Assembly: GCF_024362325.1 (NCBI RefSeq)
Contig: NZ_CP101497.1
Span: 1,736,001-1,800,000, forward strand
Reading direction: 5' to 3'
DNA: 64,000 nt
DNA from: Microcella humidisoli
GTDB lineage: Bacteria; Actinomycetota; Actinomycetes; Actinomycetales; Microbacteriaceae
The notes under the pieces were generated by a model. It saw nothing but the letters and a program-made list of their open reading frames with translations, was not told the DNA's origin and searched no databases. Below, piece after piece: positions 49,431 through 64,000 of the stretch; the first letter of the stretch is position 1; the number at the start of each line of letters is the position of its first letter. The position numbers and the translations under genes are program-made.

Positions 49431-50660
49431 CTACGCGGGCGGACCAGCCTGGGCCGGGAGCACGAAGCGCGTGCGGTACGCCTGCACGGCGCTGCGCATC
49501 CCGATGCCGCACACGCCGACGAGCTCCTCGCCGCGGAAGTACTCGACCACGCACTCGTCGTCGACCCGCCCTGCGACGAGCTCGCTGCGATCGGCGAGGT
49601 AGGTCATGCCGAAGGCGAGCAGGTGCGCGTCGTACTGGTCGCTCCAGAACGAGGGCAGCGGGGCGAAGCCCGCGGCCGCGAGGGGCTCGCAGTCGTCGCC
49701 CGCGAGCTGCGCGGCGATGAGCTGGCCGGCCCGCTTGCCGGTCTCGGTCGGCAGGTTCCAGTGCTCGACCCGACGCGGCACGTCGTCGAAAAGCGGGTTG
49801 GCATAGCGGGCCACGTCGCCCACCGCGAAGATCTCGGGGTGCACCGTGCCGTCGGCGCCGACCGCGCGCAGCCCGCCGTCGACGAGCACCCCGTTCGACA
49901 CGTCGAGGCCCGAGCCCTCGAGCCACTCGGTGTTGGGGTCGCTGCCGACCGCGACGATGAGCACGTCGCACTCGAGCATGACCCCGCTCGTGAGGATGAC
50001 GCGCTCGACCGAGGGGTCGCCGACGAGCCCGAACAGCGACTCGCCCGTGAAGAACCGCACCCCGTGCTCCTCGTGGCGACGGCGCATCTCCGCGCCGAGC
50101 AGCGGGCCGAGCGCCCGCTCGAGCGGCACGCGGCTCTGCGTCACGATCGACACGGTCGCACCGTTCTTGGCCGCCGTCGCCGCGATCTCACAGCCGACGA
50201 ACCCCGAGCCGAGAATGACGACGTTCGCGCCCGGCCGCAGCACGTCGCGTAGCGCGACGGCGTCGTCAAGCGTGCGCAGCACGTGGATGCCGCCGAGCCC
50301 GTGGTCGTCGATCGGCAGCCCCTTGGGGCGCAGCCCGGTCGCGATCACGAGCGCGCTGTAGGGATGCTCATCCCCGGCATCGTCGACGACCACCCGCCGC
50401 ACGGCATCGAGCGACACCGCCGCGCGCCCGAGCACCCACGAGACCCCCTCCTCGAGCGCTGAGCGGATGGGGAACGCGACCTCCGCGTGCCCGTGCCCCT
50501 CGGTCTGCAGCAGCTCCTTCGAGAGGGGCGGGCGGTTGTACGGCGCGTGCGCCTCGGCACCGAGGAACTCGATGGGCCCCGCGTAGCCGGCGCGCCGCGC
50601 GCCCTCGGCGGTGCGGAGGCCGGCCATGGAGGCTCCGACGATCATGAGCGGAGCATCCAT
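49431..50660 (-). CDS. NAD(P)H:ferredoxin reductase (FAD), P450 redox partner
   Basis: 409 residues. Putidaredoxin-reductase/rubredoxin-reductase type: FAD-binding MIVGASMAGLRTAEGARRAG (residues 6-25), NAD-binding VVILGSGFVGCEIAA (about 148-162) and the C-terminal GDVARYANPLF FAD motif. Transfers electrons from NAD(P)H to the ferredoxin encoded 4 nt upstream. Last gene of the five-gene minus operon; the only P450 in the window is encoded 4 kb away in the same island. Confidence 0.92.
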   Translation of the reverse strand: MDAPLMIVGASMAGLRTAEGARRAGYAGPIEFLGAEAHAPYNRPPLSKELLQTEGHGHAEVAFPIRSALEEGVSWVLGRAAVSLDAVRRVVVDDAGDEHPYSALVIATGLRPKGLPIDDHGLGGIHVLRTLDDAVALRDVLRPGANVVILGSGFVGCEIAATAAKNGATVSIVTQSRVPLERALGPLLGAEMRRRHEEHGVRFFTGESLFGLVGDPSVERVILTSGVMLECDVLIVAVGSDPNTEWLEGSGLDVSNGVLVDGGLRAVGADGTVHPEIFAVGDVARYANPLFDDVPRRVEHWNLPTETGKRAGQLIAAQLAGDDCEPLAAAGFAPLPSFWSDQYDAHLLAFGMTYLADRSELVAGRVDDECVVEYFRGEELVGVCGIGMRSAVQAYRTRFVLPAQAGPPA

Positions 50661-50664
50661 CGGA

Positions 50665-50859
50665 TCAGGCCCGGGTGATGAGGATCGCCTGCATGGGGCA
50701 GACGTCGGCCGCGGCCTCGAGGTCGGCGAGCATCTCGTCGGGGGCCTCGGCCACGTATTCGAGCTTGTCGTCGGCGTTGAGCTGGAACACCTCGGGGGCC
50801 TCGAACACGCACTGGCCGTAGTGCTGGCACTTGTCCATGTCGACGTCGATGCGAATCAT
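50665..50859 (-). CDS. [3Fe-4S] ferredoxin of P450 type
   Basis: 64 residues. Cluster cysteines C11 and C17 (CQHYGQC, with a non-Cys residue where 4Fe-4S proteins have the second ligand) and C54 (VCPMQAI). This is the single-cluster ferredoxin that serves bacterial class I P450s. Sits between the FAH-family gene and its reductase. Confidence 0.93.
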   Translation of the reverse strand: MIRIDVDMDKCQHYGQCVFEAPEVFQLNADDKLEYVAEAPDEMLADLEAAADVCPMQAILITRA

Positions 50860-50869
50860 GCGATGGTCC

Positions 50870-51742
50870 TTACTTCTCGAGGCGGGAGGGGTACAGATCG
50901 TTGGAGGGGGTGCGGATGCCGCGGAACTCCCAGTCGCCGCCGAGCGCGGTCGAGACGACCTCTTCGCTCGAGGTCGGCTGGGCGCCCACGTCGGTGCGGA
51001 TCGGCTCGGGCCCCTCGACGATGTGGTTCGTCAGGCGGCCGAGGCCATCGACCTCGACCTCCACGACATCGCCGGGCTGCACGGGCCGCGAGTTCGCGGG
51101 GGTTCCCGAGTAGATCATGTCGCCCGGCACGAGCGTGATGGTGCGCGCGAGGTCGGCCACGAGGTAGTGCATGTCCCACTCCATCGTGTCGGTCGAGTCC
51201 TCCTGCACGACGGCGCCGTTCACGAGGGTGCGGATCGTCTTGCCGCTGAAGTCCCAGTCGGTCACGAGGCCGGGCCCCACGGGCGCGAGCGTATCGCTGC
51301 CCTTGACGCGCAGCATCGAGCCCGCATCCGTGTCGCGGAAGTCGTGCAGCCCGTAGTCGTTGCCCACCGAGTAGCCGGCGATGTAGTCGCCCGCCTCGGC
51401 CGGCGAGACGTTGCGGCACGTGCGGCCGATGACGATGACGATCTCGCCCTCGTAGTTGAGCCACTGGCAGCCGGCCGGCCGCACGACAGCACCCTTGTGG
51501 CTGTTGAGCGCCGTGATCGGCTTGTGGAAGTAGGTCGGCGCGGGCGGCAGCTTCGTCATGAACTCATCGCTGCGGCTCGGGTAGTTCAAGTGCACGGCGA
51601 TGATCTTGGTCGGCTCGCTGGGCGGCAGGTGCACCGCCTCGTCGACGCCGACCGTGCGGCCGTCGGATGCTCTCAGCTCGTCGCCGTGCCGCACCACCTG
51701 CACGGGGAAACCGTCGAGCAGGATGCGCCGGTACTCGGTCAT
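50870..51742 (-). CDS. Fumarylacetoacetate hydrolase (FAH) family enzyme
   Basis: 290 residues from the ATG at 51742 (overlaps the upstream gene by 4 nt); a longer frame is not real. FAH fold: NYEGEIVIVIG (two acidic metal ligands), GYSVGNDYGLHDF (Asp ligand), MIYSGTPANS near the C-terminus. In meta-cleavage routes such as homoprotocatechuate (HpaG) this family isomerises/decarboxylates the oxidised ring-cleavage product, which fits its neighbours. Hydrolase activity on a diketone is the alternative. Confidence 0.88.
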   Translation of the reverse strand: MTEYRRILLDGFPVQVVRHGDELRASDGRTVGVDEAVHLPPSEPTKIIAVHLNYPSRSDEFMTKLPPAPTYFHKPITALNSHKGAVVRPAGCQWLNYEGEIVIVIGRTCRNVSPAEAGDYIAGYSVGNDYGLHDFRDTDAGSMLRVKGSDTLAPVGPGLVTDWDFSGKTIRTLVNGAVVQEDSTDTMEWDMHYLVADLARTITLVPGDMIYSGTPANSRPVQPGDVVEVEVDGLGRLTNHIVEGPEPIRTDVGAQPTSSEEVVSTALGGDWEFRGIRTPSNDLYPSRLEK

Positions 51743-52689
51743 GCGACGCTCCCACGGGTGGCGGCGACGTCGCCGGTCGGGTCTTCGCGCGAGAGGGTGA
51801 CGTCTTTCGGCAGCGGGAATCCGCCCTCGGGCTCGGGGAAGTAGATGTGCACCTGGCCCGTGCCGATCGAGTTCTCGTACTCCGAGTACATGACGCCTTT
51901 CGCGGTGTTGGCCTCTTCGCCCGTCGCGCCCGCCATCTGCAGCCAGTGGCTGAAGTTGGCCTCGGGCTTGAACTGCTTGAACTCGGGCATCGTCTCGAGA
52001 ATGCGCTTGTGGTCGCCCTGCTTCATCCACTCGATGCGCTCGAGGTCGGCCTGCAGGGCGCCCTCGCTGTAGATGTGCGAGGGGTCGCTCGCCTCGTGCT
52101 TGCGCAGGTCGCGCAGCTTGTAGAACGTGTGTGAGAGAGCGCCCGAGGCGAGCAGCAGCACCTTGCGGTCGCTGTCGCGAATGGCCTCGCCGAGCGCGCG
52201 ACCCGCGCGCAAGAAGTCGTCGGTCTGCGCGGTCTGGCAGACCGAGAGGCTCACCCAGCGCTTGTCGAGACCGCGGCCGAGGTAGTGCCACAGGTTGACC
52301 GTGGCGTAGAAGATCGGCAGATGCGGGTCGCTGATGGGCGTGACCCAGGTGCCGTTCTTCTCGTCGTAGTCGGCGACCGCGTTCGCGAGCTCGGGGTCGC
52401 CCTTGAAGGCGTAGGGGATCTGCGACATGCCGCGCGGCAGCTCTTCACTCGTGAAGAGCCCCGAGCGCTCTGCCTGAGCTGAGATGACGAACTCGACCGT
52501 GGTGGCCCAGTGCGAGTCGAGCACGACGACGGTGTCGTAGTCGAGCACTTCCATAACTTCGGAGCGGAAGCGCTTCAGGCCCGGAACAAGGCTGATCTCC
52601 TTGCCTCCGTTGAGGTCGTACCGCACGTCCTGCGGCAGCATGATGGTGGGCACGTGCGCGAGCATCGCGGCGCCGACGACCTTTCCCAT
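51739..52689 (-). CDS. LigB-type (class III) extradiol ring-cleavage dioxygenase
   Basis: 316 residues. LigB-family catalytic subunit, HpaD/MhpB-like: His in MLAHVPTIM (H12), DSHWAT (H60) and the ASGALSHTF segment supply iron ligands and the acid/base His. Expected to open a catechol-type ring next to a hydroxyl using O2 and Fe(II). Starts 3 nt after the aldehyde dehydrogenase gene. The true substrate is unknown; 3,4-dihydroxyphenylacetate-like catechols are the best guess from the gene set. Confidence 0.88.
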   Translation of the reverse strand: MGKVVGAAMLAHVPTIMLPQDVRYDLNGGKEISLVPGLKRFRSEVMEVLDYDTVVVLDSHWATTVEFVISAQAERSGLFTSEELPRGMSQIPYAFKGDPELANAVADYDEKNGTWVTPISDPHLPIFYATVNLWHYLGRGLDKRWVSLSVCQTAQTDDFLRAGRALGEAIRDSDRKVLLLASGALSHTFYKLRDLRKHEASDPSHIYSEGALQADLERIEWMKQGDHKRILETMPEFKQFKPEANFSHWLQMAGATGEEANTAKGVMYSEYENSIGTGQVHIYFPEPEGGFPLPKDVTLSREDPTGDVAATRGSVA

Positions 52690-52692
52690 GAG

Positions 52693-54156
52693 TTACTCCT
52701 TCCACCCAGAGGGTGCGTAGACGGTGTTCTTGACGTCGGCGTAGAAGTCGAACGACCACACGCCGCCTTCACGGCCGATGCCGCTCTTCTTGCTGCCGCC
52801 GAAGGGCGCGGCCAGATCGCGAACGAAGAAGCAGTTGACCCAGATGGTGCCGGCGACGAGGTTCTTCGTCAGGCGCTCGGCGCGGTCGCGGTCGCCGCAC
52901 ACGACGACGGCGGCGAGCCCATACTCGGTCGCATTGGCGAGCTGCACGGCCTCCTCATCGGTCGAGAACGTCTGCATCGCGAGCACGGGGCCGAACACCT
53001 CCGCAGTCAGGATCTCGCTGCCGGGGGTCGCCCCCGTGATGAGCGTGGGCCGGTAGTAGAGGCCGCCCAAGTCGTTGTTGGGGCCGCCACCGAAGGCGAC
53101 CTGCGCGCCCGCGGCCTGCGCGCGCTCGACGAAGCCGGCCACGCGGTCGAGGTGCACGCGGTGGATCTGCGGGCCGATCTGGGTGGCCTCGTCGCGCGGG
53201 TCGCCCTGAACGATCTGGGCCGCTTTCGCCGCGAAGCGCTCAGCGAACTCGTCGGCGATGCTCTCGTGCACGAGCAGCCGCGTGCCCGAGAGGCACACCT
53301 GCCCGGCGTTGTCGTACTGCTCGACGGCGATCTCGACCGCGAGGTCGAGGTCGGCGTCGTCGGTGATGATGAGCGGGCTCTTGCCGCCGAGCTCGAAGCT
53401 CACAGGCGTGAGGTTCTCGGCCGCGGCGCGCGCGATGGCCTTCGCCGTCGGCACCGAGCCGGTGAAGGCGATGCGGGCGATTCCGGGATGCGCGACGAGG
53501 GCCGCGCCCACCTCGGCGCCGTAGCCCTGCACGACGTTGAAGACTCCGGCGGGCATCCCCGCCTGCTCGCACAGGTCGGCGAAGACGCTCGCCGTGAGCG
53601 GCGTCCATTCCGCAGGCTTGAGCACGACGGTGTCGCCCGCGGCGAGGGCCGGGCCGATGCGCCACGTGGCGAGCATGAGCGGAGCGTTCCAGGGCGTGAT
53701 GATCGCGGCGACGCCCGACGGATCCCAGCTGACCACGTTGTCGTGCCCGCGGGTCTGCCAGACGGGGTGCGACAGCTCGTTGAGAGCCCAGTCGGCGAAG
53801 AACCGGATGTTCATGGCGACGCGCGGCATGACGCCCCGCCGGTGGCTGCGCAGCAGCGAGCCGTTGTCGAGGGTCTCGAGCTGCGAGAGCGCTTCGACGT
53901 TCGCCTCGATCAGGTCGGCGAGGCGGTGCAGGATCTCGCCGCGGCCGGTGGGCCCGAGGTCGCGCCAGCCCGGGAACGCGGTGCGCGCGGCCTGCACGGC
54001 GGCATCGGCCTCGGCGGCCCCGCCACGGGCGATATGCGCGAGCACGGTGCCGTCGATGGGCGAGATGCTCTCGAAGGTCTCGGCCGAGGCGACGCGCTGC
54101 CCGCCGATGGAGTGCCGCGTGTCGACGGTCAGTCCGGCCAGCTCAACCTGATGCAC
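52693..54156 (-). CDS. Aldehyde dehydrogenase (muconate-semialdehyde type)
   Basis: 487 residues. NAD-dependent ALDH: catalytic Cys288 in NAGQVCLSG, general-base Glu in FELGGKSP, ITPWNAPLMLATW and VVLKPAEWTP, FTGSVPTAKAI cofactor loop. Closest in pattern to HpaE-like 2-hydroxymuconic semialdehyde dehydrogenases, and it precedes the ring-cleavage dioxygenase in one operon. First gene of the minus operon; operator site A lies 27-42 nt upstream. Confidence 0.93.
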   Translation of the reverse strand: MHQVELAGLTVDTRHSIGGQRVASAETFESISPIDGTVLAHIARGGAAEADAAVQAARTAFPGWRDLGPTGRGEILHRLADLIEANVEALSQLETLDNGSLLRSHRRGVMPRVAMNIRFFADWALNELSHPVWQTRGHDNVVSWDPSGVAAIITPWNAPLMLATWRIGPALAAGDTVVLKPAEWTPLTASVFADLCEQAGMPAGVFNVVQGYGAEVGAALVAHPGIARIAFTGSVPTAKAIARAAAENLTPVSFELGGKSPLIITDDADLDLAVEIAVEQYDNAGQVCLSGTRLLVHESIADEFAERFAAKAAQIVQGDPRDEATQIGPQIHRVHLDRVAGFVERAQAAGAQVAFGGGPNNDLGGLYYRPTLITGATPGSEILTAEVFGPVLAMQTFSTDEEAVQLANATEYGLAAVVVCGDRDRAERLTKNLVAGTIWVNCFFVRDLAAPFGGSKKSGIGREGGVWSFDFYADVKNTVYAPSGWKE

Positions 54157-54182
54157 GCGGTTGCTCCCTTGCGATCGCTATT

Positions 54183-54198
54183 CGTTCGGATACGAACG
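54183..54198. promoter_or_regulatory. Island operator, site A (aldehyde dehydrogenase operon)
   Basis: CGTTCGGATACGAACG: 6-bp inverted arms around GATA. Lies upstream of the minus operon, near a TAGCGA -10-like element (minus strand). Confidence 0.75.
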
Positions 54199-54246
54199 TT
54201 TGGCAGGAGTCTAGCCGAGGAGGACCGTCGCGCAAGAGGGGATGCC

Positions 54247-54747
54247 TTACCGCTGCCCCTCCGTCACCTGGGTGATCGCGCGCAGCATGTCGGCGAGTTC
54301 GCTTCGCCGGGCGGGGTCGAGGCTCGAGGTGATCGTGCGCTCGTGGTCGTTGAAGGTCGGGAAGAGCGTGGACATGAGCTCGCGGCCCGCGGGCGTCATC
54401 GACACGTTGACGAGCCGGCCGTCTTTGTCGCTGCGCTCGCGCAGCAGATAGCCCTTCGACTCGAGGGTTCCGAGCACCCCCGTGAGGGTCGCCTTCGAGA
54501 ACCCGCCCTCCTCGGCGATCTGCCGGGTTTCGATGGGCTCCCAGATCCAGGTGACCCAGAGCACGACGAACGCTGTCCACGACAGGCCCGTCGCGGCGAG
54601 CACGCTGCGCTCGAGGTAGTTGCGGGTGGCGTTGGCGGCGCGGAAGAGGTTCGAGACCACGGCCATCGCCTCGAAGTCGAGGGGCAGGGTGCCGAGCTTG
54701 CCGGCGACGCGCTCTTCGGTCTCGGCCAGGGTGTGCGGACTCGGCAT
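54247..54747 (-). CDS. MarR-family transcriptional regulator
   Basis: 166 residues, GAGAGGG ribosome site. Winged helix: WTAFVVLWVTWIWEPIETRQ, recognition region EEGGFSKATLTGVLGTLESKGYL (about residues 80-102), wing RERSDKDGRLVNVSMT. Placed between the two outward-facing arms of the island and the best candidate to bind the five shared operators. HpaR-type MarR repressors control homoprotocatechuate genes elsewhere, which fits. Confidence 0.93.
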   Translation of the reverse strand: MPSPHTLAETEERVAGKLGTLPLDFEAMAVVSNLFRAANATRNYLERSVLAATGLSWTAFVVLWVTWIWEPIETRQIAEEGGFSKATLTGVLGTLESKGYLLRERSDKDGRLVNVSMTPAGRELMSTLFPTFNDHERTITSSLDPARRSELADMLRAITQVTEGQR

Positions 54748-54837
54748 GGTTCCCTCTCTTGCGCGCGGTTCGCGCGACCTCCATCCTCACTCATTCGCAT
54801 CGAAACCACCTTGAGGCTCGACTCGCGCGCCGAAGTT

Positions 54838-54853
54838 CGTTAGCATCCGAACA
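54838..54853. promoter_or_regulatory. Island operator, site B (P450)
   Basis: CGTTAGCATCCGAACA; overlaps the probable -10 (TAGCAT, 54841-54846) of the P450 gene, 28 nt before its ATG. Confidence 0.7.
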
Positions 54854-54881
54854 AATCGCTTCCCATGAGAGCAGGAGCACC

Positions 54882-56123
54882 ATGTCGACGACGACAGACC
54901 TCACCCTCGCTGACCTCGATCTCTTCGCGGGCGGCGCCCCGTGGGGCGTCTTCGACGAGCTGCGAGCCACGCCCGGCCTGCACTACTCGACCGAAGAGGC
55001 GCCCAACAGCGGCTTCTGGTCGGCGACGCGGTACCACGACATCGTGCGCATCCTGCGCGACACCGAGACGTTCACGTCGACCAAGTTCACCAACCTCGAA
55101 GAGGTCGACCCGGCCATGCAAGACCAGCGCCGGTCGCTGCTCGAGACCGACGGTCTGCGCCACCGCGCGCTGCGCCGCATGCTGCAGGGCGAGTTCACGC
55201 CCCAGGCCGTCGCCAAGTACGAGACCTTCCTGCGCGGCATCACCGCGAAGACGTTGGATGCTGCGCTCGCGAAGAAGGAGTTCGACTTCGTCGAGGAGGT
55301 CAGCGCCGACTTCCCGATCCGCGTGCTCGCGCGACTGCTGGGCGTGCCCGACAGTGACACGGGCCAGCTCATCGAGTGGGGCAACCGCATGGTCGGCAAC
55401 ACCGACCCGGAGCACGCCGATGTGCTCATCGGCTCGGCCGACAGCGACGAGTACAAGCACGTGCCGTTCCGCTCGCCCGCCGCGATCGAGGTCTACGAGT
55501 ACGGCAAGCACCTCGCGGCTGAGCGCCGAGGCAAGGGCGGCACCGACCTCATCACGCTGCTCGCCGACGGTGTGCCGAGTGACGGGCAGCCGCTCAGCGA
55601 GCACGAGTTCAACACCAACTTCCTGCTGCTCGTCGTCGCCGGCAATGAGACGACCCGGCACACGATCACGCACTCGATGAAGAACCTGCTCGACAACCCG
55701 TCGCAGCTCGAGATCCTGCGCAACGACCCCTCGCTCATCCCGTGGGCGGTCGAGGAGTTCCTGCGCTACGCCTCGCCGGTCTACCACTTCCGCCGTACGG
55801 CCACGAAGGATGTCGAGTTCTCCGACACGCAGATCAGCGAGGGCGAGAAGGTCGTCGTGTGGTTCGCCTCGGGCAACCGCGACTCGGCCATCTTCGACGA
55901 CCCGTACCGCTTCGACGTGACGCGCAACCCCAACGAGCACATGTCGTTCGGCCGCGGCGGCCCGCACATGTGCCTCGGCAACGCGCTCGCCCGCATCGAG
56001 CTGCGCATCATGTTCGAAGACCTGCTGACGCGCGACGTCACGCTCGAGCGCGCAGGCGACCTCGACTACCTGCGCAGCAACTTCGTGCACGGCATCAAGC
56101 GCATGCCGGTGCGCGTGGCCTAG
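54882..56123 (+). CDS. Cytochrome P450 (class I bacterial)
   Basis: 413 residues from the ATG at 54882 with GCAGGAG at 54871-54877; the longer frame includes the promoter. Heme ligand Cys364 in FGRGGPHMCLGN; I-helix VVAGNETTRHTI; K-helix EEFLRYASP (ExxR); the FASGNRDSAIFDDP segment. Soluble monooxygenase needing the ferredoxin and reductase of the neighbouring operon. Family number not assigned; the sequence resembles steroid/terpenoid/amine-oxidising soluble P450s. In mycobacteria, P450-ferredoxin operons next to glutamine synthetase-like genes act on cyclic amines, a useful analogy. Confidence 0.95.
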   Translation: MSTTTDLTLADLDLFAGGAPWGVFDELRATPGLHYSTEEAPNSGFWSATRYHDIVRILRDTETFTSTKFTNLEEVDPAMQDQRRSLLETDGLRHRALRRMLQGEFTPQAVAKYETFLRGITAKTLDAALAKKEFDFVEEVSADFPIRVLARLLGVPDSDTGQLIEWGNRMVGNTDPEHADVLIGSADSDEYKHVPFRSPAAIEVYEYGKHLAAERRGKGGTDLITLLADGVPSDGQPLSEHEFNTNFLLLVVAGNETTRHTITHSMKNLLDNPSQLEILRNDPSLIPWAVEEFLRYASPVYHFRRTATKDVEFSDTQISEGEKVVVWFASGNRDSAIFDDPYRFDVTRNPNEHMSFGRGGPHMCLGNALARIELRIMFEDLLTRDVTLERAGDLDYLRSNFVHGIKRMPVRVA

Positions 56124-56159
56124 CGGCGAGGGCCGCGGCTGCGGTTACGACGGCCGTCG

Positions 56160-56211
56160 ATCGGTCCCGTATTTCCGGCGGATGCGATCGCTGAGCCAAT
56201 TCGGGACCGAT
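56160..56211. terminator. Long inverted repeat between convergent P450 and amidotransferase genes
   Basis: ATCGGTCCCG (56160-56169) and CGGGACCGAT (56202-56211), 10 perfect pairs, with ATT/AAT pairing again just inside and a ~24-nt apex. Probable bidirectional terminator, possibly a protein site. Confidence 0.5.
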
Positions 56212-56242
56212 GGAGGCCCGCACCGACGTGATGGTCGGTCGG

Positions 56243-56959
56243 CTACGCGCGGGGGAGCAGCCCCGCGACGTCGGTGAGGAACGCGTCGACGAGCGCGAAG
56301 GTGCGCTCGCGCGCGGCGGCTTCAACCGCGCGCGTCTGCGCGAGCATGATCGCGGGGTCGTCGCCGTTCTCCTGAACCTTGGATGCTCCGCCCCAGTCGA
56401 GCCACCCCTGCAGCCCTGCGGCATCGAGCTCGGGGTGGAACTGCACGGCGAGCGACCGCCCCACGACGAAGGCCTGCGAGGCCGCGGGCGTGCGCGCGAT
56501 CTCGACGGCGCCGGGTGGCACGGTCCAGCGGTCGTAGTGGAACTGGAACCACGGCCCCTCGCCGACGAGGGTCGGGTCGTCGCTCCACACCGAGGTCCAG
56601 CCGATCTCCCCGCGGGGGGCGGGCGCCACCGAGCCGCCGAGGGCGCGGGCGAGCAACTGGCCGCCGAAGCAGATGCCCAGCACGGGCATCCCGGAATCGA
56701 CGGCGGCGCGCAGCCACGCGATCTCGGGGAGGAGCCAGCGGCCGATGCAGGCGTCGTCCCACGCGCCCCAGGGGGCGCCGAGCGGTACGAGCACGTCGTA
56801 GTCGGCGACGGCGGGGAATGCGGTCTCGATGTTGGGCGCTGCGAAGTCGCTCTCCGCGACGACGAGATGCGTGTCGATGGCGAATCCGTGGTGCGCGAAG
56901 CGCTCGCCGACCGGGCCCAGCGGGCTCACGTGATCGTGCTGGATGAACAGAACGCGCAT
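56243..56959 (-). CDS. Class I glutamine amidotransferase-like hydrolase
   Basis: 238 residues; GGGGAGG ribosome site. Triad Cys97 (LGICFGGQLLA), His175 and Glu177 (VQFHPEL). Free-standing, with no synthase partner, so it more likely hydrolyses a gamma-glutamyl amide than delivers ammonia. Divergent from the glutamine-synthetase-like gene with one operator between them. AtdA2 of aniline degradation is a comparable class I amidotransferase-like partner of a GS-like enzyme. Confidence 0.9.
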   Translation of the reverse strand: MRVLFIQHDHVSPLGPVGERFAHHGFAIDTHLVVAESDFAAPNIETAFPAVADYDVLVPLGAPWGAWDDACIGRWLLPEIAWLRAAVDSGMPVLGICFGGQLLARALGGSVAPAPRGEIGWTSVWSDDPTLVGEGPWFQFHYDRWTVPPGAVEIARTPAASQAFVVGRSLAVQFHPELDAAGLQGWLDWGGASKVQENGDDPAIMLAQTRAVEAAARERTFALVDAFLTDVAGLLPRA

Positions 56960-56985
56960 CAGACCTCCCCATCGAGTCGGTGGGT

Positions 56986-56995
56986 AGTCTACTAT
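56986..56995. promoter_or_regulatory. Overlapping divergent -10 elements
   Basis: TAGACT on the minus strand (56986-56991, towards the amidotransferase) overlaps TACTAT on the plus strand (56990-56995, towards the GS-like gene). Operator C begins 2 nt further right, so one bound repressor could block both. Confidence 0.5.
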
Positions 56996-56997
56996 CT

Positions 56998-57013
56998 CGT
57001 TTGAGTCCGAACG
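56998..57013. promoter_or_regulatory. Island operator, site C (amidotransferase/GS-like divergent promoter)
   Basis: CGTTTGAGTCCGAACG. A second inverted repeat CGAACG-N5-CGTTCG (57008-57024) overlaps its right half, which could allow a second dimer. Confidence 0.7.
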
Positions 57014-57054
57014 ATTTTCGTTCGAGCCGCCCGAGTGCCACGAAGGAGTCGCAC

Positions 57055-58404
57055 ATGAGCCACAGCCTGTCCGCCCTGCAGAGCGAGCTGCTCTCGGCCA
57101 AGATCGACGTGCTGCGCGTCATCTACGCCGACATCATCGGCACCGTGCGGTCGAAAGACCTGCTCGTGAGCGAGCTCGACAAGATCAGCCACGGCGGGCC
57201 GGCGTTCTGCCGGGGCGTGTGGGTGACGACGACGCAGGGCGGTGTGCTCGACGGTGCTGACGTGCTCAGCAACGGGCTCGAAGACTTCATCAGCCAGATC
57301 GTTCCGGGCAGCTGGCGCGCCCTGCCGTGGGAGCCCGGCGTGGCCTTCGTCGTCGCCGGCGCGAACAACCCCGACGGCACGCCGAGCCCGCTCTCGCCGC
57401 GCGTGCTGCTCGAGCGCATCGTCGGCGAGTACGCGAAGCTCGGCCTCACGCCGCTCGTCGGCCCCGAACTCGAGTTCTACATCGCCGACCGCAACCCCGA
57501 GGGCGGCTTCACGCGCGCCCTTACGCAGCCCGGCCGCGTGTACACGAGCGGTGCGACGGTCGACCCCAAGGGCACCTTCCTGCACCTGCTGCGCATGCTC
57601 GACCAGCTGCGCATCGGCGTATTCGCCGGCAACCACGAGTTCAGCCCCAGCCAGTACGAGATCAACATCTGGCACGGCGAGGCGCTCGACGCGTGCGACC
57701 GCGCGTTCATGCTCAAGGCGGGTGTGAAAGACGTCATCGCGCGCGTCGGCCAGGCGGCCACCTTCGCGGGCAAGCCGTGGAGCGACGAGGGCGGCAGCGG
57801 CTTCCACTTGCACATGTCGCTCGTCGACGCGCAGGGCGAGAACCTCATGCACGAGGGCGATGGCCTCAGCCCGCTCGCGCAGCACATGATCGCGGGCATC
57901 GTCGAGCACGCCGCGGCGCTCACCGCGTTCTGCAACCCCACGATCAACGCCTTCAAGCGCCTCGGCCCCGACACCCTCGCGCCCTACCGCGCCAACTGGG
58001 GCTACGACAACCGCAGCGCCATGCTGCGCGTGCCGCCGGAGCGCGGCGGCGGAACCCGCCTCGAGATGCGCTTGGGCGACGGCGCCGCCAACGCGTACCT
58101 CATGACCGCGGCCCTGCTCGCGGCTGGCCTCGACGGCATCCGCCGCGAGCTGGCCGCCCCGCCGGCCGCCGTCGGCTACAGCTACGAAGACGAGTCGCAG
58201 GCGATCCTGCCGATGACCCTGGGCGATGCTCTGGATGCTCTGCGCGCCGACAGCGCCCTCATCGAGATGCTCGGCGGCGAGCTGGTCGACGTCTTCGAAG
58301 TCATGAAGCGCGACGAGATCGAGCGCTACACCGCCGACGTGCCCGACCCGTCGACGCGCGACGTGACCGCGTGGGAGGTGCGGGAGTACTTCCTGGACCT
58401 GTAG
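57055..58404 (+). CDS. Glutamine synthetase-like gamma-glutamyl ligase
   Basis: 449 residues from the ATG at 57055 (GAAGGAG at 57042-57048). GS-I fold: metal Glu in GPELEF (138, 140), EFSPSQYEIN (E195, E202), His253 in GSGFHLHMS, NPTINAFKRL, YRANWGYDNRSAMLR and RLEMRLGDGAANAY. It lacks the adenylylation Tyr loop of housekeeping GlnA. Context (permease, two gamma-glutamyl hydrolases, P450) suggests it links glutamate to an amine, as PuuA, IpuC or AtdA1 do. Its stop codon sits in a perfect 12-bp hairpin and a strong terminator follows. Confidence 0.9.
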   Translation: MSHSLSALQSELLSAKIDVLRVIYADIIGTVRSKDLLVSELDKISHGGPAFCRGVWVTTTQGGVLDGADVLSNGLEDFISQIVPGSWRALPWEPGVAFVVAGANNPDGTPSPLSPRVLLERIVGEYAKLGLTPLVGPELEFYIADRNPEGGFTRALTQPGRVYTSGATVDPKGTFLHLLRMLDQLRIGVFAGNHEFSPSQYEINIWHGEALDACDRAFMLKAGVKDVIARVGQAATFAGKPWSDEGGSGFHLHMSLVDAQGENLMHEGDGLSPLAQHMIAGIVEHAAALTAFCNPTINAFKRLGPDTLAPYRANWGYDNRSAMLRVPPERGGGTRLEMRLGDGAANAYLMTAALLAAGLDGIRRELAAPPAAVGYSYEDESQAILPMTLGDALDALRADSALIEMLGGELVDVFEVMKRDEIERYTADVPDPSTRDVTAWEVREYFLDL

Positions 58405-58415
58405 GTCCAGGAAGT
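58388..58415 (+). other. Perfect 12-bp hairpin across the GS-like stop codon
   Basis: ACTTCCTGGACC (58388-58399), loop TGTA, GGTCCAGGAAGT (58404-58415). The TAG stop is at 58402-58404, at the loop. Confidence 0.8.
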
Positions 58416-58452
58416 CAGCAAACACAGATTCTTGGATCTCGCAGGAATCAGA

Positions 58453-58491
58453 CGAGAAGGGCCCGGGAGCAACGCTCCTGGGCCTTTCTCG
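58453..58491. terminator. Strong bidirectional terminator
   Basis: 18-base arms (58453-58470 and 58474-58491), paired throughout with two G-T type mismatches, AAC loop; A-rich on one side and TTTCTCGTT on the other. Lies between the convergent GS-like and acetoacetate-decarboxylase-like genes. Confidence 0.85.
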
Positions 58492-58505
58492 TTCCCACTC
58501 TTGAT

Positions 58506-59318
58506 CTAGACGGCGGGGTTGGACCGATCGGCGACGAGCGACCCCCCGTTGAACGTCACGCCGACCTCGCGGTAGTACGCCGCAATCTTCTCCTGCACGG
58601 GCAGGATCGACGCGAGTTCGTCCCAGGGGGAGTCGTGCAGCTCGAGCTCGAAGTCGCCCACCCAGGTTTCGCCGATCTCGGCGTCGGTCGTGCTCATGGT
58701 GATGAGCTGGTCGAGGCTGTTGCCGGCGCCGGGGGTGATGGAGGGCATCCATCGTGAATGCAGCATGGGGTGGCCGTTCACGAAGCCGTTCGACTCGCTG
58801 GGCTCACGCAGCGTCACGACGAGTGAGGCGAGGCGGTGGTCGTACGCCGCGAGCGAGGCGCCGAGCTTCGCGCCCGGTGCGAGGCGCGGTGAGGCCTTGC
58901 CGACATTGAAGACGCGCGTGACCGCCATCGAGCCGAGCTTCTTCGGGTAGCCCTGGAACCAGCCGCGGCCGATCGCGAAGTCTTTCGTCACCCAGATGGC
59001 GACGCAGCGCGTGTACGTCTTGCCGTCATGCTTCACGCGCACGACGGCGAAGGTCTCGAGGTACTGCGAGCGCATGGGGTCGAGCAGCTCGGCGCCGCCG
59101 GTCGAGCACGACTGCCAGTCGGCCCAGATGAGCGCCACCGCTCCGGGGTCGTCGTCGGCGAGCTCGAGGCCCTCGGGCAGCAGGGCGGCGACGTTCGCGG
59201 GGTCGGTGCGGTACTCGGCGGTGAGCAGCGTGCCCGAGTAGAACCAGGGCATGTCGGGAACGAGCGCGCTCGCGCCGCTCGGGGTCTTCGGGGCGAGGAA
59301 TCCATTGAGCGAGGCCAT
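58506..59318 (-). CDS. Acetoacetate decarboxylase-fold enzyme
   Basis: 270 residues. ADC superfamily pattern: LLPEGLELADD near residue 45, then YLETFAVVRVKHDGKTYTRCVAIWVTKDFAIGRGWFQGYPKKLG, whose Lys-Lys near residue 125 is where ADC has its Schiff-base lysine. Family members include decarboxylases and aldolase-dehydratases. Within this island it may handle a late 2-keto intermediate, or decarboxylate the substrate. Operator D1 lies 20 nt upstream of its ATG. Confidence 0.85.
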   Translation of the reverse strand: MASLNGFLAPKTPSGASALVPDMPWFYSGTLLTAEYRTDPANVAALLPEGLELADDDPGAVALIWADWQSCSTGGAELLDPMRSQYLETFAVVRVKHDGKTYTRCVAIWVTKDFAIGRGWFQGYPKKLGSMAVTRVFNVGKASPRLAPGAKLGASLAAYDHRLASLVVTLREPSESNGFVNGHPMLHSRWMPSITPGAGNSLDQLITMSTTDAEIGETWVGDFELELHDSPWDELASILPVQEKIAAYYREVGVTFNGGSLVADRSNPAV

Positions 59319-59337
59319 GAGGGTCAGGCTACCGAAT

Positions 59338-59353
59338 CATTCGTGAACTAACG
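59338..59353. promoter_or_regulatory. Island operator, site D1 (ADC-like gene)
   Basis: CATTCGTGAACTAACG; its reverse complement CGTTAGTTCACGAATG aligns with the other four sites. The weakest of the five. Confidence 0.6.
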
Positions 59354-59425
59354 ATAGGCAATTCCGGATGCCCGTTCCGCACCCGCGCGCAAGCACGCGC
59401 GACACGGGCAGACCCGTGATTCTGC

Positions 59426-59454
59426 TTGACGCGCGCCCACCCGTGCACCACTAT
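59426..59454 (+). promoter_or_regulatory. Sigma-70-type promoter of the permease operon
   Basis: TTGACG (59426-59431), 17-nt spacer, CACTAT (59449-59454). The expected start near 59461 places operator D2 immediately downstream. Confidence 0.7.
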
Positions 59455-59464
59455 GGCGCCAGGT

Positions 59465-59480
59465 CGTTTCGACACGAACG
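59465..59480. promoter_or_regulatory. Island operator, site D2 (permease)
   Basis: CGTTTCGACACGAACG, just after the predicted transcription start of the permease operon and 33 nt before the ATG. Confidence 0.75.
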
Positions 59481-59513
59481 ATCCACCCCAACTCAATGAG
59501 GAGTTCTGGATCC

Positions 59514-61016
59514 ATGACTGACACCCCCCAATCGACCCTGCGCAAGGGTCGTCTCGGCGTCATCGGCGTCGTCTTCTTCGTGGTGGCGGCCTCCGCCCCG
59601 CTCGTCGGCATCACCGGTGCCGTGCCCGTCGCCATGCTCGTCGGCAACGGAGCCGGTGCCCCCGGTGCCTACCTCGTGGTCGGCCTGACCCTGCTGCTGT
59701 TCAGCGTCGGCTACGCCGCCATGAGCCAGCGCGTCACCAACTCGGGCGCCTTCTTCGCCTACGTCGGCAAGGGCCTCGGCGTCAACGCCGGCGTCGCCTC
59801 GGCGTTCGTGTCGATCCTCACCTACGTCACCATCCAGCTCGCCATCTACGGCTTCTTCGGCGGGCTCGTCGAGGGCACCATGGCTGAGCTCGGCGTGAGC
59901 CTGCCCTGGTACATCTGGGCCTTCATCGCCTGGGCGCTCGTCACCGGCCTCTCGCTGCTGAGCGTCGACGTCGGGGCGAAGGTGCTCGGGGTGCTGCTCG
60001 TGCTCGAGATCACCTCGCTGCTCGTCGCCGCAGTCGCCATGCTCGCCAACGGCGGCCCGGAGGGCTGGAACCTCGCGGCCTCGTTCAGCCCGGAGAACAT
60101 CTTCGCGGGCGGCTTCGCGGGCGGTGCCGGCATCGCCCTGGCCTTCGCCCTCGCGAGCTTCATCGGCTTCGAGGCCACGGCCATCTATGGCGAGGAGTCG
60201 AAAGACCCCAAGCGCACCGTGCCGCTGGCCACCTACATCGCCATCTCGACCATCAGCATCCTGTTCGCGATCGTCTCGTTCGGCATGGTGACCGGAATGG
60301 GCGCGAGCGGCATCATCGACGAGGTCGTCACGCGCTCGATGGATGCCGACGGCAACGTGCTCGCGAACCCGGCCGGGGTGCTCTTCAGCCTCACCGAGCA
60401 GTACGTCGGCCCGTGGCTCGTCACGATCATGACGATCCTCGTCATCACGAGCCTCTTCGCCGGACTGCTGGCCTTCCAGAACGCCGCAGCGCGCTACTTC
60501 TTCGCCCTCGGGCGCGGCGGCGTGTTCCCGGCGCGGGCGGCCGTGACCAACAAGGCCGGTGCCCCCGTCGGCGGCGTGGTCATCACGTCGGCGCTCGCCG
60601 CCCTCGTCATGATCATCTTCGCGGTGGCCGGCCTCGACCCGATCGGCAACCTGTTCTTCTGGATGAGCTCGATCACGGCCATCTCGGTCATCGTCGTCGA
60701 GATCCTCGTCTCGATCGCGGTGATCGTGTACTTCCGCCGCGTCGGTGGCGGAAACCTCTGGAAGACCGTCATCGCCCCGGCGGTGTCGATCGTGCTGCTC
60801 GCGATCGGGCTCTACCTGGTGATGTCGCGCTTCAACCTGCTGGCCGGCACCGTGCCCGACGGCGTCGACCCCTCGCTGCCCGAGAGCGCGTGGCTGCTGA
60901 ACCCGCTCGGCTGGTTCCTCGTGCTGCTGCCGTTCATCTTCCTCGTGATCGGCTACGTGGCGGCGCTCATCAACAAGAAGGAGAACGAGCAGCTCGTGAA
61001 GGACTTCGCCAGCTAG
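59514..61016 (+). CDS. APC-family amino acid/amine permease
   Basis: 500 residues from the ATG at 59514 (GAGGAG at 59498-59503 sets the start). Twelve helices; family hallmarks RLGVIGVVFFVVAASAPLVG in helix 1 and FIGFEATAIYGEESKDP after helix 6. Sodium- or proton-coupled uptake of an amino acid or amine. First gene of a plus-strand operon with the sigma4-like and PuuD-like genes and under operator D2, so its substrate is probably the compound the island degrades. Confidence 0.93.
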   Translation: MTDTPQSTLRKGRLGVIGVVFFVVAASAPLVGITGAVPVAMLVGNGAGAPGAYLVVGLTLLLFSVGYAAMSQRVTNSGAFFAYVGKGLGVNAGVASAFVSILTYVTIQLAIYGFFGGLVEGTMAELGVSLPWYIWAFIAWALVTGLSLLSVDVGAKVLGVLLVLEITSLLVAAVAMLANGGPEGWNLAASFSPENIFAGGFAGGAGIALAFALASFIGFEATAIYGEESKDPKRTVPLATYIAISTISILFAIVSFGMVTGMGASGIIDEVVTRSMDADGNVLANPAGVLFSLTEQYVGPWLVTIMTILVITSLFAGLLAFQNAAARYFFALGRGGVFPARAAVTNKAGAPVGGVVITSALAALVMIIFAVAGLDPIGNLFFWMSSITAISVIVVEILVSIAVIVYFRRVGGGNLWKTVIAPAVSIVLLAIGLYLVMSRFNLLAGTVPDGVDPSLPESAWLLNPLGWFLVLLPFIFLVIGYVAALINKKENEQLVKDFAS

Positions 61017-61026
61017 TTCGTCGACG

Positions 61027-61060
61027 CTCGGGAGCGGTCGCCGATCCGGCCGCTCCCGAG
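61027..61060 (+). terminator. Hairpin after the permease gene
   Basis: Perfect 11-bp stem CTCGGGAGCGG/CCGCTCCCGAG with a 12-nt loop, 10 nt after the permease stop and 33 nt before the next start. May attenuate downstream expression or protect the permease mRNA. Confidence 0.6.
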
Positions 61061-61092
61061 CATCACCCCGCACCAACGGAATGGAGACACCC

Positions 61093-61374
61093 ATGCGCGA
61101 CGACGACTTCGACCTCGATGTGGTCGATCCTGAGGATGCCCGCCTCGAGCGCGTCGTCGCCAGCCTCACCCCCGCCGAGCTCGAGGCCGGGATCGCCCGC
61201 CTGCCGCACGACCTGCAGGCCGCCGCGACCGGAGTGCTCGTGCAGCGTCGCACCTACAGCGATGTGAGCCAAGAGCTCGGCATCCGTCAGCCGGAGCTCG
61301 TGCGCGCCCTGCGCCGCGCGCGCGGCATCATCGCCCGCCGCCTCGCGGGCCCGCCGGAGGGCGACACCGCGTGA
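61093..61374 (+). CDS. Small sigma-70 region 4-like helix-turn-helix protein
   Basis: 93 residues from the ATG at 61093 (GGAG 7 nt upstream; an ATG at 61081 is possible). After an acidic N-terminus, residues ~25-85 read like sigma region 4: LTPAELEAGIARLP, YSDVSQELGIRQPELVRALRRARGIIARRL. There is no region 2, so it is not a full sigma factor. Its stop overlaps the GTG of the PuuD-like gene. May act as a co-regulator or be a structural relic. Confidence 0.65.
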   Translation: MRDDDFDLDVVDPEDARLERVVASLTPAELEAGIARLPHDLQAAATGVLVQRRTYSDVSQELGIRQPELVRALRRARGIIARRLAGPPEGDTA

Positions 61375-62075
61375 CCGCGCTCATCGGCCTGACCACCTAC
61401 ATGGAGCAGACGGTCATGGGCCTGTGGGACCGCCCGGCGGCCGTGCTGCCGCGCGTCTACACCGACTGCGTGATCGCCGCCGGGGGAGCGGTCGTCGGGC
61501 TGCCCCCGCAGCCCCCGCACCCCGACGCCGTCGAGCGCGTGCTCGAGGGCATCGACGGCCTCATCCTCACGGGCGGGAAAGACGTCGATGCGGCGCTGTA
61601 CGGCGAGCGTGCGCATCCCGAGAACGACGCCCCGCGCCCCGACCGCGACGCCTGGGAGATCGCGCTCGTGCACGCCGCGATCGCGCGCGACCTGCCCGTG
61701 CTCGGCATCTGCCGCGGCCTGCAGGTGCTCAACGTGGCCCTCGGCGGCACGCTCGTGCAGCACCTGCCCGACGTGATCGGCTCGACCCGCTACAGCTACG
61801 GCAACGCGACCTTCGCCGACAACCCGGTGCTCACCGAGCCGGGCACGCGCATCGGCGGGATGCTCGGCGCGAGCCTCACCGTCAAGAGCTACCACCACCA
61901 GGCCATCAACCACCTCGCCCCGGGGCTCACCGTGAGCGCCCGCGGTGATGACGGCATCATCCAGGCGGTCGACATCGACGCGCTGTCGTTCGGCGTCGCG
62001 GTGCAGTGGCACCCCGAGGAGTCGCCCGACGACCTGCGGCTCTTCACCGCGCTCGTCGAGGCCGCGCAGCGCTAG
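61371..62075 (+). CDS. PuuD-like gamma-glutamyl hydrolase (peptidase C26)
   Basis: 234 residues. Class I amidotransferase fold: Cys114 (LGICRGLQVLN), His214 and Glu216 (VQWHPEE); GLILTGGKDVDAALYGE is typical of gamma-glutamyl-GABA hydrolases. Would release glutamate from a gamma-glutamylated intermediate. GTG start overlaps the previous stop; the end overlaps the convergent phosphotransferase gene by 4 nt. Right border of the island. Confidence 0.92.
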   Translation: MTALIGLTTYMEQTVMGLWDRPAAVLPRVYTDCVIAAGGAVVGLPPQPPHPDAVERVLEGIDGLILTGGKDVDAALYGERAHPENDAPRPDRDAWEIALVHAAIARDLPVLGICRGLQVLNVALGGTLVQHLPDVIGSTRYSYGNATFADNPVLTEPGTRIGGMLGASLTVKSYHHQAINHLAPGLTVSARGDDGIIQAVDIDALSFGVAVQWHPEESPDDLRLFTALVEAAQR

Positions 62076-63079: not shown

Positions 63080-63177
63080 ACCGACAGGGTAGGTTGCCCG
63101 GGCCCGCCGGGGCCCCGCGCCACGCGCCGGGGCGCCGATGTGACCACCGCTGCCGTGCGTGACGCTGAGAGGTTTCG

Positions 63178-64000
63178 ATGCCCCGTTCGCTGACGCAGCA
63201 CCTGCCGCTCTCCCGGTACCGCATCGACCGCGATCACGCCGCGCGCGACCGCCCCCAGCTGTTCGACGAGCTCGCGGCCGATCCCGACGCACGCATCGTG
63301 GCGCTGTGGCGCGGCGAGGTGCTGCTGACGACGGCGCGGGATGCGGCCACCGCTCCCGCGCTCGCGCTGCTGCCGTGGGCATCCGCCCCCGCCGAGGCGC
63401 TGCGCATCTACCTCGGCCGCACGCTCGAGGCCGAGGGCGGGGTGCCGGCCGGAGCAGCGATCACGGCGGTCGTGCTGGACGACGAGTCGGGCCCCGCGCT
63501 CGAAGCCGATGTGACGCGCTGGGCCTCGCCGCGCACGCTCGGCCACCGGCTGGGCGACCGCGACGCGGGCCTTGCCATCGAGGCCCTCGGCCTGGCCAAC
63601 TGGCACGACACGCACCGCTTCTCGCCGCGCACGGGCAACCCGACGGTCGCCGCGAAGGCCGGCTGGGTGCGCGTCGATGTCGAGACGGGGGCCGAGCTCT
63701 TCCCCCGCACCGACGCGGCCGTCATCGTCGGCATCACCGATGCCGACGACCGCCTCGTGCTCGGCAGCAACGCGCTGTGGGAGTCGAACCGCTTCTCGCT
63801 GCTCGCGGGCTTCGTCGAGCCGGGGGAGTCGCTCGAGGCCGCCGTCGTGCGCGAGGTCTTCGAGGAGTCGGGCCTGCGCGTCATCGACGCCGAGTACGTC
63901 GGCTCGCAGCCTTGGCCGTTCCCCGCCTCCCTCATGCTGGGGTTCCGCGCGCGCCTCGATCCCGCGCACGCGAACGACCTGCGGCCCGACGGCGCCGAGA
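63178..64000 (+). CDS. nudC: NAD+ diphosphatase NudC, 5' part
   Basis: Starts at the ATG at 63178 and runs out of the window; 274 residues visible, nearly full length. Nudix box GFVEPGESLEAAVVREVFEESGL near residues 216-238 fits G-x5-E-x7-REUxEExGU, and the NudC-specific SQPWPFP follows. Removes NMN from NAD(H) and NAD-capped RNA. The zinc-ribbon cysteines are absent (THRFSPRTGNP in their place). Divergent from the phosphotransferase gene. Confidence 0.93.
   Translation, partial: MPRSLTQHLPLSRYRIDRDHAARDRPQLFDELAADPDARIVALWRGEVLLTTARDAATAPALALLPWASAPAEALRIYLGRTLEAEGGVPAGAAITAVVLDDESGPALEADVTRWASPRTLGHRLGDRDAGLAIEALGLANWHDTHRFSPRTGNPTVAAKAGWVRVDVETGAELFPRTDAAVIVGITDADDRLVLGSNALWESNRFSLLAGFVEPGESLEAAVVREVFEESGLRVIDAEYVGSQPWPFPASLMLGFRARLDPAHANDLRPDGAE

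Follow-up and report, generated by a model that had tools for sequence, protein, structure and literature searches.

We analyzed a 64,000-nucleotide stretch of the Microcella humidisoli chromosome (the window; bases 1736001-1800000 of a single-contig 2.65-Mb genome), in which a set of putative amine- and aromatic-degradation genes occupies positions 49431-62075. Genes were called from the list of open reading frames (ORFs) and from Pfam and NCBIfam family searches of the window proteins. The cluster encodes a glutamine-synthetase-like (GS-like) protein, a class-I glutamine-amidotransferase-like hydrolase (GAT), a PuuD-like hydrolase, an APC permease, a cytochrome P450 with its ferredoxin (Fd) and ferredoxin reductase (FdR), a LigB-type extradiol dioxygenase, an aldehyde dehydrogenase (ALDH), an FAA-hydrolase-family enzyme (FAH) and an ADC-fold enzyme (Table 1). 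All of these had been listed in a preliminary description of the sequence, and all proved to lie in intact frames; the MarR-family regulator is an addition to that list. Because gene orientations alternate, the cluster is not a single operon.

Table 1 Genes and operator sites of the cluster, with window coordinates. The last column counts relatives carrying the gene among the 46 well-flanked loci defined in the text.
Feature	Position	Strand	Family or site score	Well-flanked loci
FdR, FAD-dependent ferredoxin reductase	49431-50660	-	Pyr_redox_2 181 bits, Reductase_C 30 bits	46/46
Ferredoxin (Fd), 64 amino acids, motif CxxYxxC...CP	50665-50859	-	Fer4_15 48 bits	45/46
FAA-hydrolase family (FAH), proposed decarboxylase/isomerase	50870-51742	-	FAA_hydrolase 177 bits	46/46
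LigB-type extradiol dioxygenase, proposed gamma-glutamyl-dopamine cleavage	51739-52689	-	LigB 76 bits (gathering score 26)	
Aldehyde dehydrogenase (ALDH), proposed semialdehyde oxidation	52693-54156	-	Aldedh 527 bits	46/46
Operator palindrome before ALDH-LigB-FAH-Fd-FdR	54181-54200		exact pattern match at 54182; 25.8 bits	
MarR-family regulator, proposed regulon repressor	54247-54747	-	MarR 44 bits	46/46
Operator palindrome, MarR/P450 intergenic	54836-54855		exact match at 54837; 27.4 bits	
Cytochrome P450, proposed ring hydroxylase	54882-56123	+	p450 88 bits	46/46
GAT, class-I glutamine-amidotransferase-like hydrolase	56243-56959	-	GATase 45 bits	45/46
Operator palindrome, GAT/GS divergent promoter	56996-57015		exact match at 56997; 26.4 bits	
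GS-like, proposed gamma-glutamyl-amine ligase	57055-58404	+	Gln-synt_C 294 bits	
ADC/MppR-fold enzyme, proposed hydratase-aldolase	58506-59318	-	ADC 200 bits (gathering score 29.8)	45/46
Operator-like site before ADC	59336-59355		28.4 bits; not an exact pattern match	
Operator palindrome before APC	59463-59482		exact match at 59464; 24.2 bits	
APC-family permease, proposed amine or tyrosine importer	59496-61016	+	AA_permease 81 bits	42/46
PuuD-like Peptidase_C26, proposed gamma-glutamyl hydrolase	61371-62075	+	Peptidase_C26 206 bits	

The intergenic regions of the cluster share a palindrome of 18 bp (TCGTT-N8-AACGA). Within the window, the pattern TCGTTN6CGAAC is matched exactly at four positions, every one between cluster genes, compared with a mean of 0.12 and a largest count of 1 in 100 shuffled windows. 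The whole genome contains seven such matches, four of them in the cluster, and a backward-pattern control gave none. With up to one mismatch, the pattern was found in 51 of 57 GAT/GS, 45 of 48 ADC/APC and 36 of 62 MarR/P450 intergenic regions of relatives, while the corresponding counts in shuffled sequences were 0.8, 0.5 and 0.7. A position weight matrix (PWM) was built from 93 distinct sites and scored five window sites above 20 bits (Table 1), with the next best at 12.7 bits; its training sites include orthologues of those in the window, so that the window scores are not independent. A first-order random sequence of 2.65 Mb held nine sites of at least 12 bits, one of at least 14 and none of at least 16. 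Since the same 18-20 bp palindrome stands at five cluster promoters and few sites occur elsewhere in the genome, the ligase, P450 and extradiol arms form one predicted regulon, for which we propose the MarR protein as the palindrome-binding repressor. Lack of co-induction of the three arms, which was to refute the preliminary description, is addressed only indirectly by these shared operators. A sigma-70 scan gave no match. One exact match to the pattern outside the cluster (L233; genome positions 1923729-1923744) scores 14 bits.

To follow the gene set across genomes, contigs were scanned with the LigB protein. Of the 401 stretches obtained, 381 are relatives, and the 80 with the best matches were retained as loci (L numbers; genomes carry G numbers). 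Forty-six of the 80 are well flanked, LigB being preceded by at least 9 kb of sequence and followed by at least 2.9 kb. The core of ten genes (FdR, Fd, FAH, LigB, ALDH, MarR, P450, GAT, GS and ADC) is complete in 43 of these 46, a sample that is partly non-independent, as the 80 loci form 25 groups at 90% LigB identity and some contigs occur in both genome collections. The three exceptions are L019 without an Fd match, L035 without GAT and L080 without ADC. Mapping the window proteins on the 80 loci gave the recurrent order ADC-GS-GAT-P450-MarR-ALDH-LigB-FAH-Fd-FdR. By name, the closest LigB relatives belong to Microcella species and Microcella-like metagenome-assembled genomes, and the hosts include Microcella, Yonghaparkia, Aurantimicrobium, Alpinimonas, Salinibacterium and Blastococcus; small genomes such as G084 (1.6 Mb) and G151 (1.5 Mb) are among them. 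At the Blastococcus locus L080, three P450-like matches lie around the cluster, possibly marking a variant with extra hydroxylations.

LigB matches at E 1e-60 or better were detected in 36 of 396 sampled genomes of the phylum, that of M. humidisoli counted. Eighteen of the other 35 were taken with longer flanks as distant loci (L150-L167), some of which end at contig ends. There, ALDH was found at 15 loci, P450 and GS at 13 each, ADC at 12, FAH at 11, MarR at 9 and GAT at 5. L150 and L151, from 9-10-Mb genomes of the same class, carry P450, GS, Fd, FdR, ADC, ALDH, LigB, FAH, APC, a second ALDH and a PuuD-like gene, and L150 additionally GAT and MarR. P450 and ADC are missing at L160, as are P450 and GS at L161, and a LigB relative alone is therefore no proof of the pathway. 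All 18 distant loci lay outside the PWM training set. In 16 of them the matrix picked out sites scoring 14-30 bits, always at cluster-gene promoters; L161 and L165 gave none. At L160, a 28-bit site (L160:9871-9890) precedes a LigB relative (47%) with no P450 match nearby, so the regulator may predate the full gene set.

The gamma-glutamyl-ligase, P450 and extradiol arms are one system, as synteny and the common operator motif at the promoters of all three establish; in this the preliminary description was borne out. The alternating orientations could also be read as a polyamine-use and an aromatic-acid-use module lying side by side by chance, an explanation already contradicted by the synteny in 43 of 46 loci and by the same operator on both modules, in the window and in other genera, and to which we attach practically no weight.

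The GS-like protein scores 263 bits with the type III glutamine synthetase model (cut-off 470) and 232 bits with the PuuA-type GGputSyn model (cut-off 650). The ammonium site of glutamine synthetases includes two acidic residues, a flap glutamate and an aspartate. At the flap position, 65 of 66 aligned rows have leucine and one has methionine, and the same pairing was obtained in all three alignments; the aspartate column holds cysteine in 57 rows and serine in nine in the alignment with 4lnf, its placement being uncertain in the other two owing to a gap. Because leucine or methionine occupies the flap position in all 66 rows, ordinary glutamine synthetase activity is unlikely, and we propose that the protein is a gamma-glutamyl-amine ligase. 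For removal of the glutamyl group there are two candidates. The closest solved structure to GAT is 7d54 (215 bits), presumably a Pseudomonas gamma-glutamyl hydrolase, and its cysteine and histidine motifs are present in 53 of 53 aligned rows. The PuuD-like protein reaches 100 bits with the PuuD model (cut-off 266) and 96 bits with the PuuD structure 6vtv, and the C26 hydrolases likewise keep their cysteine and histidine motifs in aligned orthologues. Either or both are proposed as the glutamyl-releasing enzyme.

Among the enzymes of the aromatic arm, the P450 has CYP125/CYP124-like proteins as closest solved relatives and retains its heme cysteine in 76 of 76 rows. LigB is closest in structure to 3,4-dihydroxyphenylacetate 2,3-dioxygenase (8iq8, 81 bits). 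Its conserved histidines, which in this family form the metal site and serve catalysis, lie in the motifs LAHVP (93 of 94 rows, with one gap), DSHW and LSH (both 94 of 94). Homoprotocatechuate-type models recur throughout this arm, with HpaD_Fe at 135 bits for LigB (cut-off 316), HpaE at 512 bits as the best model for ALDH (cut-off 638), whose cysteine is conserved in aligned orthologues, the C-terminal HpaG model at 190 bits for FAH (cut-off 276) and HpaR at 45 bits for MarR (cut-off 121). The M. humidisoli genome contains no convincing HpaI aldolase, its single PF03328 match (24.5 bits, or 27.6 with neighbours; cut-off 25) lying in a 988-amino-acid frame that probably encodes another enzyme. 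On these sub-cut-off scores and the weak HpaI match, a plain Hpa pathway was rejected. Of 11 genomes examined for this family, seven gave strong HpaI matches, and G000, G022, G037 and G151 gave no more than weak ones.

The ADC-fold protein may fill this gap. It scores 174 bits with the MppR model (cut-off 380), its closest solved structures are MppR (4jm3, 160 bits), 4zbo and 5upb, the last of which we take to be Swit_4259, and the lysine pair of its GYPKK motif is invariant in 65 of 65 rows. In G084 (one contig, 99% complete) the only FAH-family gene is that of the cluster, so no separate FAH-type hydratase is available there, while the other ten genomes have two to six such genes. Given the weak HpaI match in M. 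humidisoli and the lack of a second FAH gene in G084, we infer that the ADC-fold enzyme would act as a pyruvate hydratase-aldolase, replacing hydratase and aldolase, a role absent from the preliminary description. ADC-like proteins have been suggested as aldolases in phenol meta-cleavage in a passage of PMC7820114. HpaF (5-carboxymethyl-2-hydroxymuconate isomerase, PF02962) was matched in none of six genomes and in none of 14 controls, and the search with PF07836 (DmpG) gave no match in controls either.

The most informative pointer to the substrate lies outside the cluster. The M. humidisoli genome has two PF00282 decarboxylase genes, neither linked to the cluster, and one of them (L118:5633-7024; genome 1950632-1952023) carries a 16.5-bit operator site, 45 bp upstream of the start. 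The orthologues are similar: in G022 (93%) the site scores 16.4 bits and lies 45 bp upstream of the aligned start, in G018 (87%) 19.2 bits at 82 bp, and in G151 (79%) 16.2 bits at 5 bp, so that the operator precedes this gene in all four genomes examined. The top NCBIfam models are the tyrosine decarboxylases MfnA (126 bits) and Enterococcus type (120 bits), followed by diaminobutyrate decarboxylase (114 bits), and among solved structures the best matches are the putative decarboxylase 5hsi and the non-canonical aromatic amino acid decarboxylase 6ebn; 5hsi and 7cwx we assume to be the Lactobacillus and Enterococcus tyrosine decarboxylases. This regulon decarboxylase, indirect as its testimony is, argues for an amino-acid-derived amine, tyramine first. 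The preliminary description had spoken of an aromatic or alkyl-aromatic amine in general and had listed aniline-type and cyclic amines for trial.

The second PF00282 gene of the genome (L117:9660-11012) was dropped as a dedicated decarboxylase for lack of an operator (no site above 9 bits). It is nevertheless distributed like the cluster: among 26 genomes of the genus, 21 have both this gene and the P450, two the P450 only (both 71-82% complete), three neither and none this gene alone (Fisher p 0.004), and beyond the genus it occurs in six of eight P450-bearing and 23 of 115 other genomes (p 0.002), with classes assigned by hand from bit scores and G063 counted on a partial P450 match. The PF00282 loci L227, L229 and L230 are not orthologues of the operator-bearing gene and have no site above 9 bits. 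In other genomes, PF00282 genes lie near the cluster itself, namely in 20 of the 80 loci, with a fragment in L040. Twelve are Salinibacterium-, Aurantimicrobium- or Alpinimonas-type loci with the gene close to the cluster, in the Salinibacterium type immediately behind P450 on the same strand; the other eight have a different PF00282 gene beyond FdR, co-directional with it in five. Six of the 18 distant loci (L152, L153, L157, L164, L165 and L166) also have one. The closest solved structures to the L069 decarboxylase are 4obu and the DOPA decarboxylase 7xin. In G084, the segment L119:10796-14545 following FdR holds a Zn-alcohol-dehydrogenase-like gene, an agmatine-deiminase-like gene (both named from sequence) and a PF00282 decarboxylase.

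The same masked regulon might instead serve phenethylamine (with two hydroxylations), dopamine as such, 3-methoxytyramine (O-demethylated by the P450) or some less obvious amine derived from an amino acid. The three P450-like matches at L080 could accommodate two hydroxylations, the CYP125/124-like structural relatives of the P450 give no clue to its substrate, and linked decarboxylases elsewhere fit diaminobutyrate decarboxylase best. Against another amine stand the operator-bearing decarboxylase, which fits tyrosine decarboxylases best, and the single P450, whose single hydroxylation suits tyramine; diamines are out as ring substrates because LigB needs a catechol. We therefore regard a different amine as unlikely, if still worth keeping in view, and consider it probable that the MarR-controlled regulon degrades tyramine, and through it tyrosine, in gamma-glutamyl-masked form.

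Where the mask would come off is indicated by genes for the end of the route. At L150, an ALDH gene with PuuC as best model (552 bits, cut-off 850) precedes the PuuD-like gene, and L152 has a PuuC-like ALDH at 517 bits (415 amino acids scanned). Gamma-glutamyl-4-aminobutanal is the substrate of PuuC. A gene resembling gamma-aminobutyric acid (GABA) transaminase was found in ten of the 35 distant genomes, many of them covered by 1.5-kb flanks only, and stands beside LigB in nine. L155 carries ADC, LigB, transaminase and a succinate-semialdehyde dehydrogenase (SSADH)-like gene on one strand; at L152, decarboxylase, transaminase and SSADH-like gene lie together about 5 kb from LigB; and the Alpinimonas locus L033 has a GABA transaminase above the cut-off (695 versus 639) between FdR and decarboxylase. 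The M. humidisoli genome encodes a GABA transaminase above the cut-off (702 versus 639) adjoining an SSADH (546 versus 646), a second one above the TIGR00700 cut-off (540 versus 507) and an aminobutyraldehyde dehydrogenase above its cut-off (653 versus 615).

The preliminary description had placed unmasking before ring opening, with the free catechol entering a homoprotocatechuate-like meta-pathway. That LigB, ALDH and FAH have HpaD, HpaE and HpaG as best or second-best models is in keeping with this order; all three scores are under the cut-offs, however, the M. humidisoli genome offers no convincing HpaI aldolase, and the PuuC-, PuuD- and GABA-transaminase-like genes of related clusters would be left without a role. 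A free amine could, moreover, cyclise with the ring-cleavage product, as a passage of PMC12311729 describes for the semialdehyde of L-DOPA 2,3-cleavage. Late unmasking is favoured because it gives the hydrolases, the PuuC-like ALDH and the GABA transaminase roles that early unmasking denies them; the linked genes fit a mask kept until gamma-glutamyl-GABA, and we judge the earlier order improbable. Gamma-glutamyl enzymes serve amine detoxification in other systems, and phenolic amines might here be gamma-glutamylated and oxidized without feeding central metabolism. Families for every step to succinate are present, unlinked genes of M. humidisoli included, and the cluster is retained in small genomes such as G084 and G151, which makes detoxification rather than growth, in our estimate, very improbable.

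The pathway that we propose is accordingly one of masked tyramine degradation. A tyrosine-decarboxylase-like enzyme, unlinked in M. humidisoli, would make tyramine, or the APC permease would import it; the GS-like ligase would join it with glutamate to gamma-glutamyl-tyramine, and the P450, ferredoxin and reductase would hydroxylate the ring to gamma-glutamyl-dopamine, these two steps presumably in this order. LigB would then open the catechol by meta-cleavage, probably proximal, ALDH would oxidize the resulting semialdehyde and FAH would decarboxylate and isomerize the product. Hydration and retro-aldol cleavage of the 2-oxo-enoate by the ADC/MppR-fold enzyme would release pyruvate and gamma-glutamyl-4-aminobutanal, which a PuuC-like ALDH would convert to gamma-glutamyl-GABA. 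GAT and/or the PuuD-like hydrolase would finally yield GABA and glutamate, and GABA transaminase and SSADH would lead to succinate. Kept through ring cleavage, the gamma-glutamyl mask would prevent cyclisation. The ring-cleavage and later steps are established reaction types, transferred here by inference. Taken as a whole, an undescribed tyrosine/tyramine pathway of aquatic and soil actinobacteria, in which the mask persists through P450 hydroxylation and meta-cleavage and blocks cyclisation, an ADC-fold enzyme takes the place of both a hydratase and an aldolase, and the route enters the latter half of the Puu pathway at gamma-glutamyl-4-aminobutanal, with GABA, pyruvate and succinate as products, has in our assessment a probability of slightly under one half (about 0.48). 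No such pathway was found in the open-licence papers searched.

Several results weigh against it. The curated Hpa- and Puu-type models all score under their cut-offs, and the strong HpaI-family gene of G084 leaves an HpaI-type aldolase possible there. Of the 18 distant loci, 13 have P450, 13 GS and five GAT; C26 hydrolases occur in 30 of the 46 well-flanked loci, and the MarR/P450 site is present with up to one mismatch in only 36 of 62. On the substrate side, the 126 bits of the regulon decarboxylase with MfnA are far under the cut-off of 299, as are its 120 bits with the Enterococcus-type model (cut-off 905). The linked decarboxylases of L069, L066, L152, L153 and L157 reach 170-210 bits with their best model, L-2,4-diaminobutyrate decarboxylase (cut-off 900), and less with tyrosine decarboxylase. 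Of 28 linked decarboxylase genes, counting L119 and the fragment in L040, none is preceded within 400 bases by a site of at least 14 bits; L150 and L151 have no decarboxylase match; and the L117 decarboxylase co-occurs with the cluster in the genus yet lacks a site above 9 bits. Toward the end of the route, two linked GABA-transaminase-like genes score 376 and 363 bits with TIGR00700, under its cut-off of 506.65, and fit a broader subfamily best, while the linked SSADH-like genes are best matched by lactaldehyde dehydrogenase (439-446 bits, against 318-352 bits for SSADH). The GABA-transaminase, SSADH and aminobutyraldehyde-dehydrogenase loci of M. humidisoli are unlinked to the cluster and have no site above 9 bits. 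The PuuD-like gene of the window has no operator of its own and is preceded by a hairpin-like repeat, so it may lie outside the APC transcript.

Parts of the proposed route resemble known systems. With 4-hydroxyphenylacetate/homoprotocatechuate degradation (HpaD, HpaE, HpaG and HpaR) the cluster shares the top models of LigB and ALDH, the second of FAH, a MarR regulator and the structural neighbour 8iq8; it differs in its sub-cut-off scores, in the lack of a convincing HpaI in M. humidisoli, in a P450 system where the flavin hydroxylase HpaBC acts and in the added GS-like, GAT and ADC genes. The Puu putrescine pathway (PuuA, PuuC and PuuD) has counterparts in the GS-like ligase, the PuuD-like hydrolase and the PuuC-like ALDH of related clusters, and gamma-glutamyl-aminobutanal is common to it and the proposed route; the GGputSyn and PuuD models are under cut-off, and the source of the aldehyde would here be the fission of an aromatic ring instead of the oxidation of putrescine. 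In the AtdA1/AtdA2 aniline pathway, an aromatic amine is first gamma-glutamylated, with a GATase as partner, then oxygenated and later meta-cleaved, much as proposed here. There, however, a Rieske dioxygenase acts on a compound with the amine on the ring, whereas a P450 would act here with the amine on the side chain; no Rieske domain was found among the window proteins scanned. The ADC-fold enzymes MppR, 4zbo and 5upb are structurally closest to the ADC protein and share its conserved lysine pair, while the MppR equivalog model stays at 174 of 380 bits and the enzyme is here placed in an amine-linked meta-cleavage route. A passage of PMC9477822 describes the mycobacterial and Gulosibacter cyclic-amine P450s PipA and MorA with ferredoxin, reductase and an adjacently numbered glutamine synthetase gene, as in our cluster, and names no extradiol dioxygenase, FAH or ADC.

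If correct, the pathway would give tyrosine carbon a further fate in addition to the homogentisate and homoprotocatechuate routes and explain why a ten-gene core is retained in small-genome freshwater and marine actinobacteria. It would also provide a chemical rationale for gamma-glutamylation, the blocking of amino-semialdehyde cyclisation, and a physiological role for a group of ADC-fold enzymes. The predicted operator and regulator are testable in the cultured Microcella alkalica, Salinibacterium amurskyense and Aurantimicrobium minutum.

At the right-hand end of the cluster, a 97-amino-acid helix-turn-helix-like ORF without Pfam or NCBIfam match lies between APC and PuuD (61081-61374, plus strand). 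The hairpin-like inverted repeat that separates APC from this pair occupies 61017-61080 and, judged by eye, is a possible terminator. In many relatives, FdR is followed by short ORFs resembling the helix-turn-helix-like one (~39-55% identity). On the other side, an ORF for an APH-family (PF01636) phosphotransferase-like protein (62072-63382, minus strand) adjoins PuuD.

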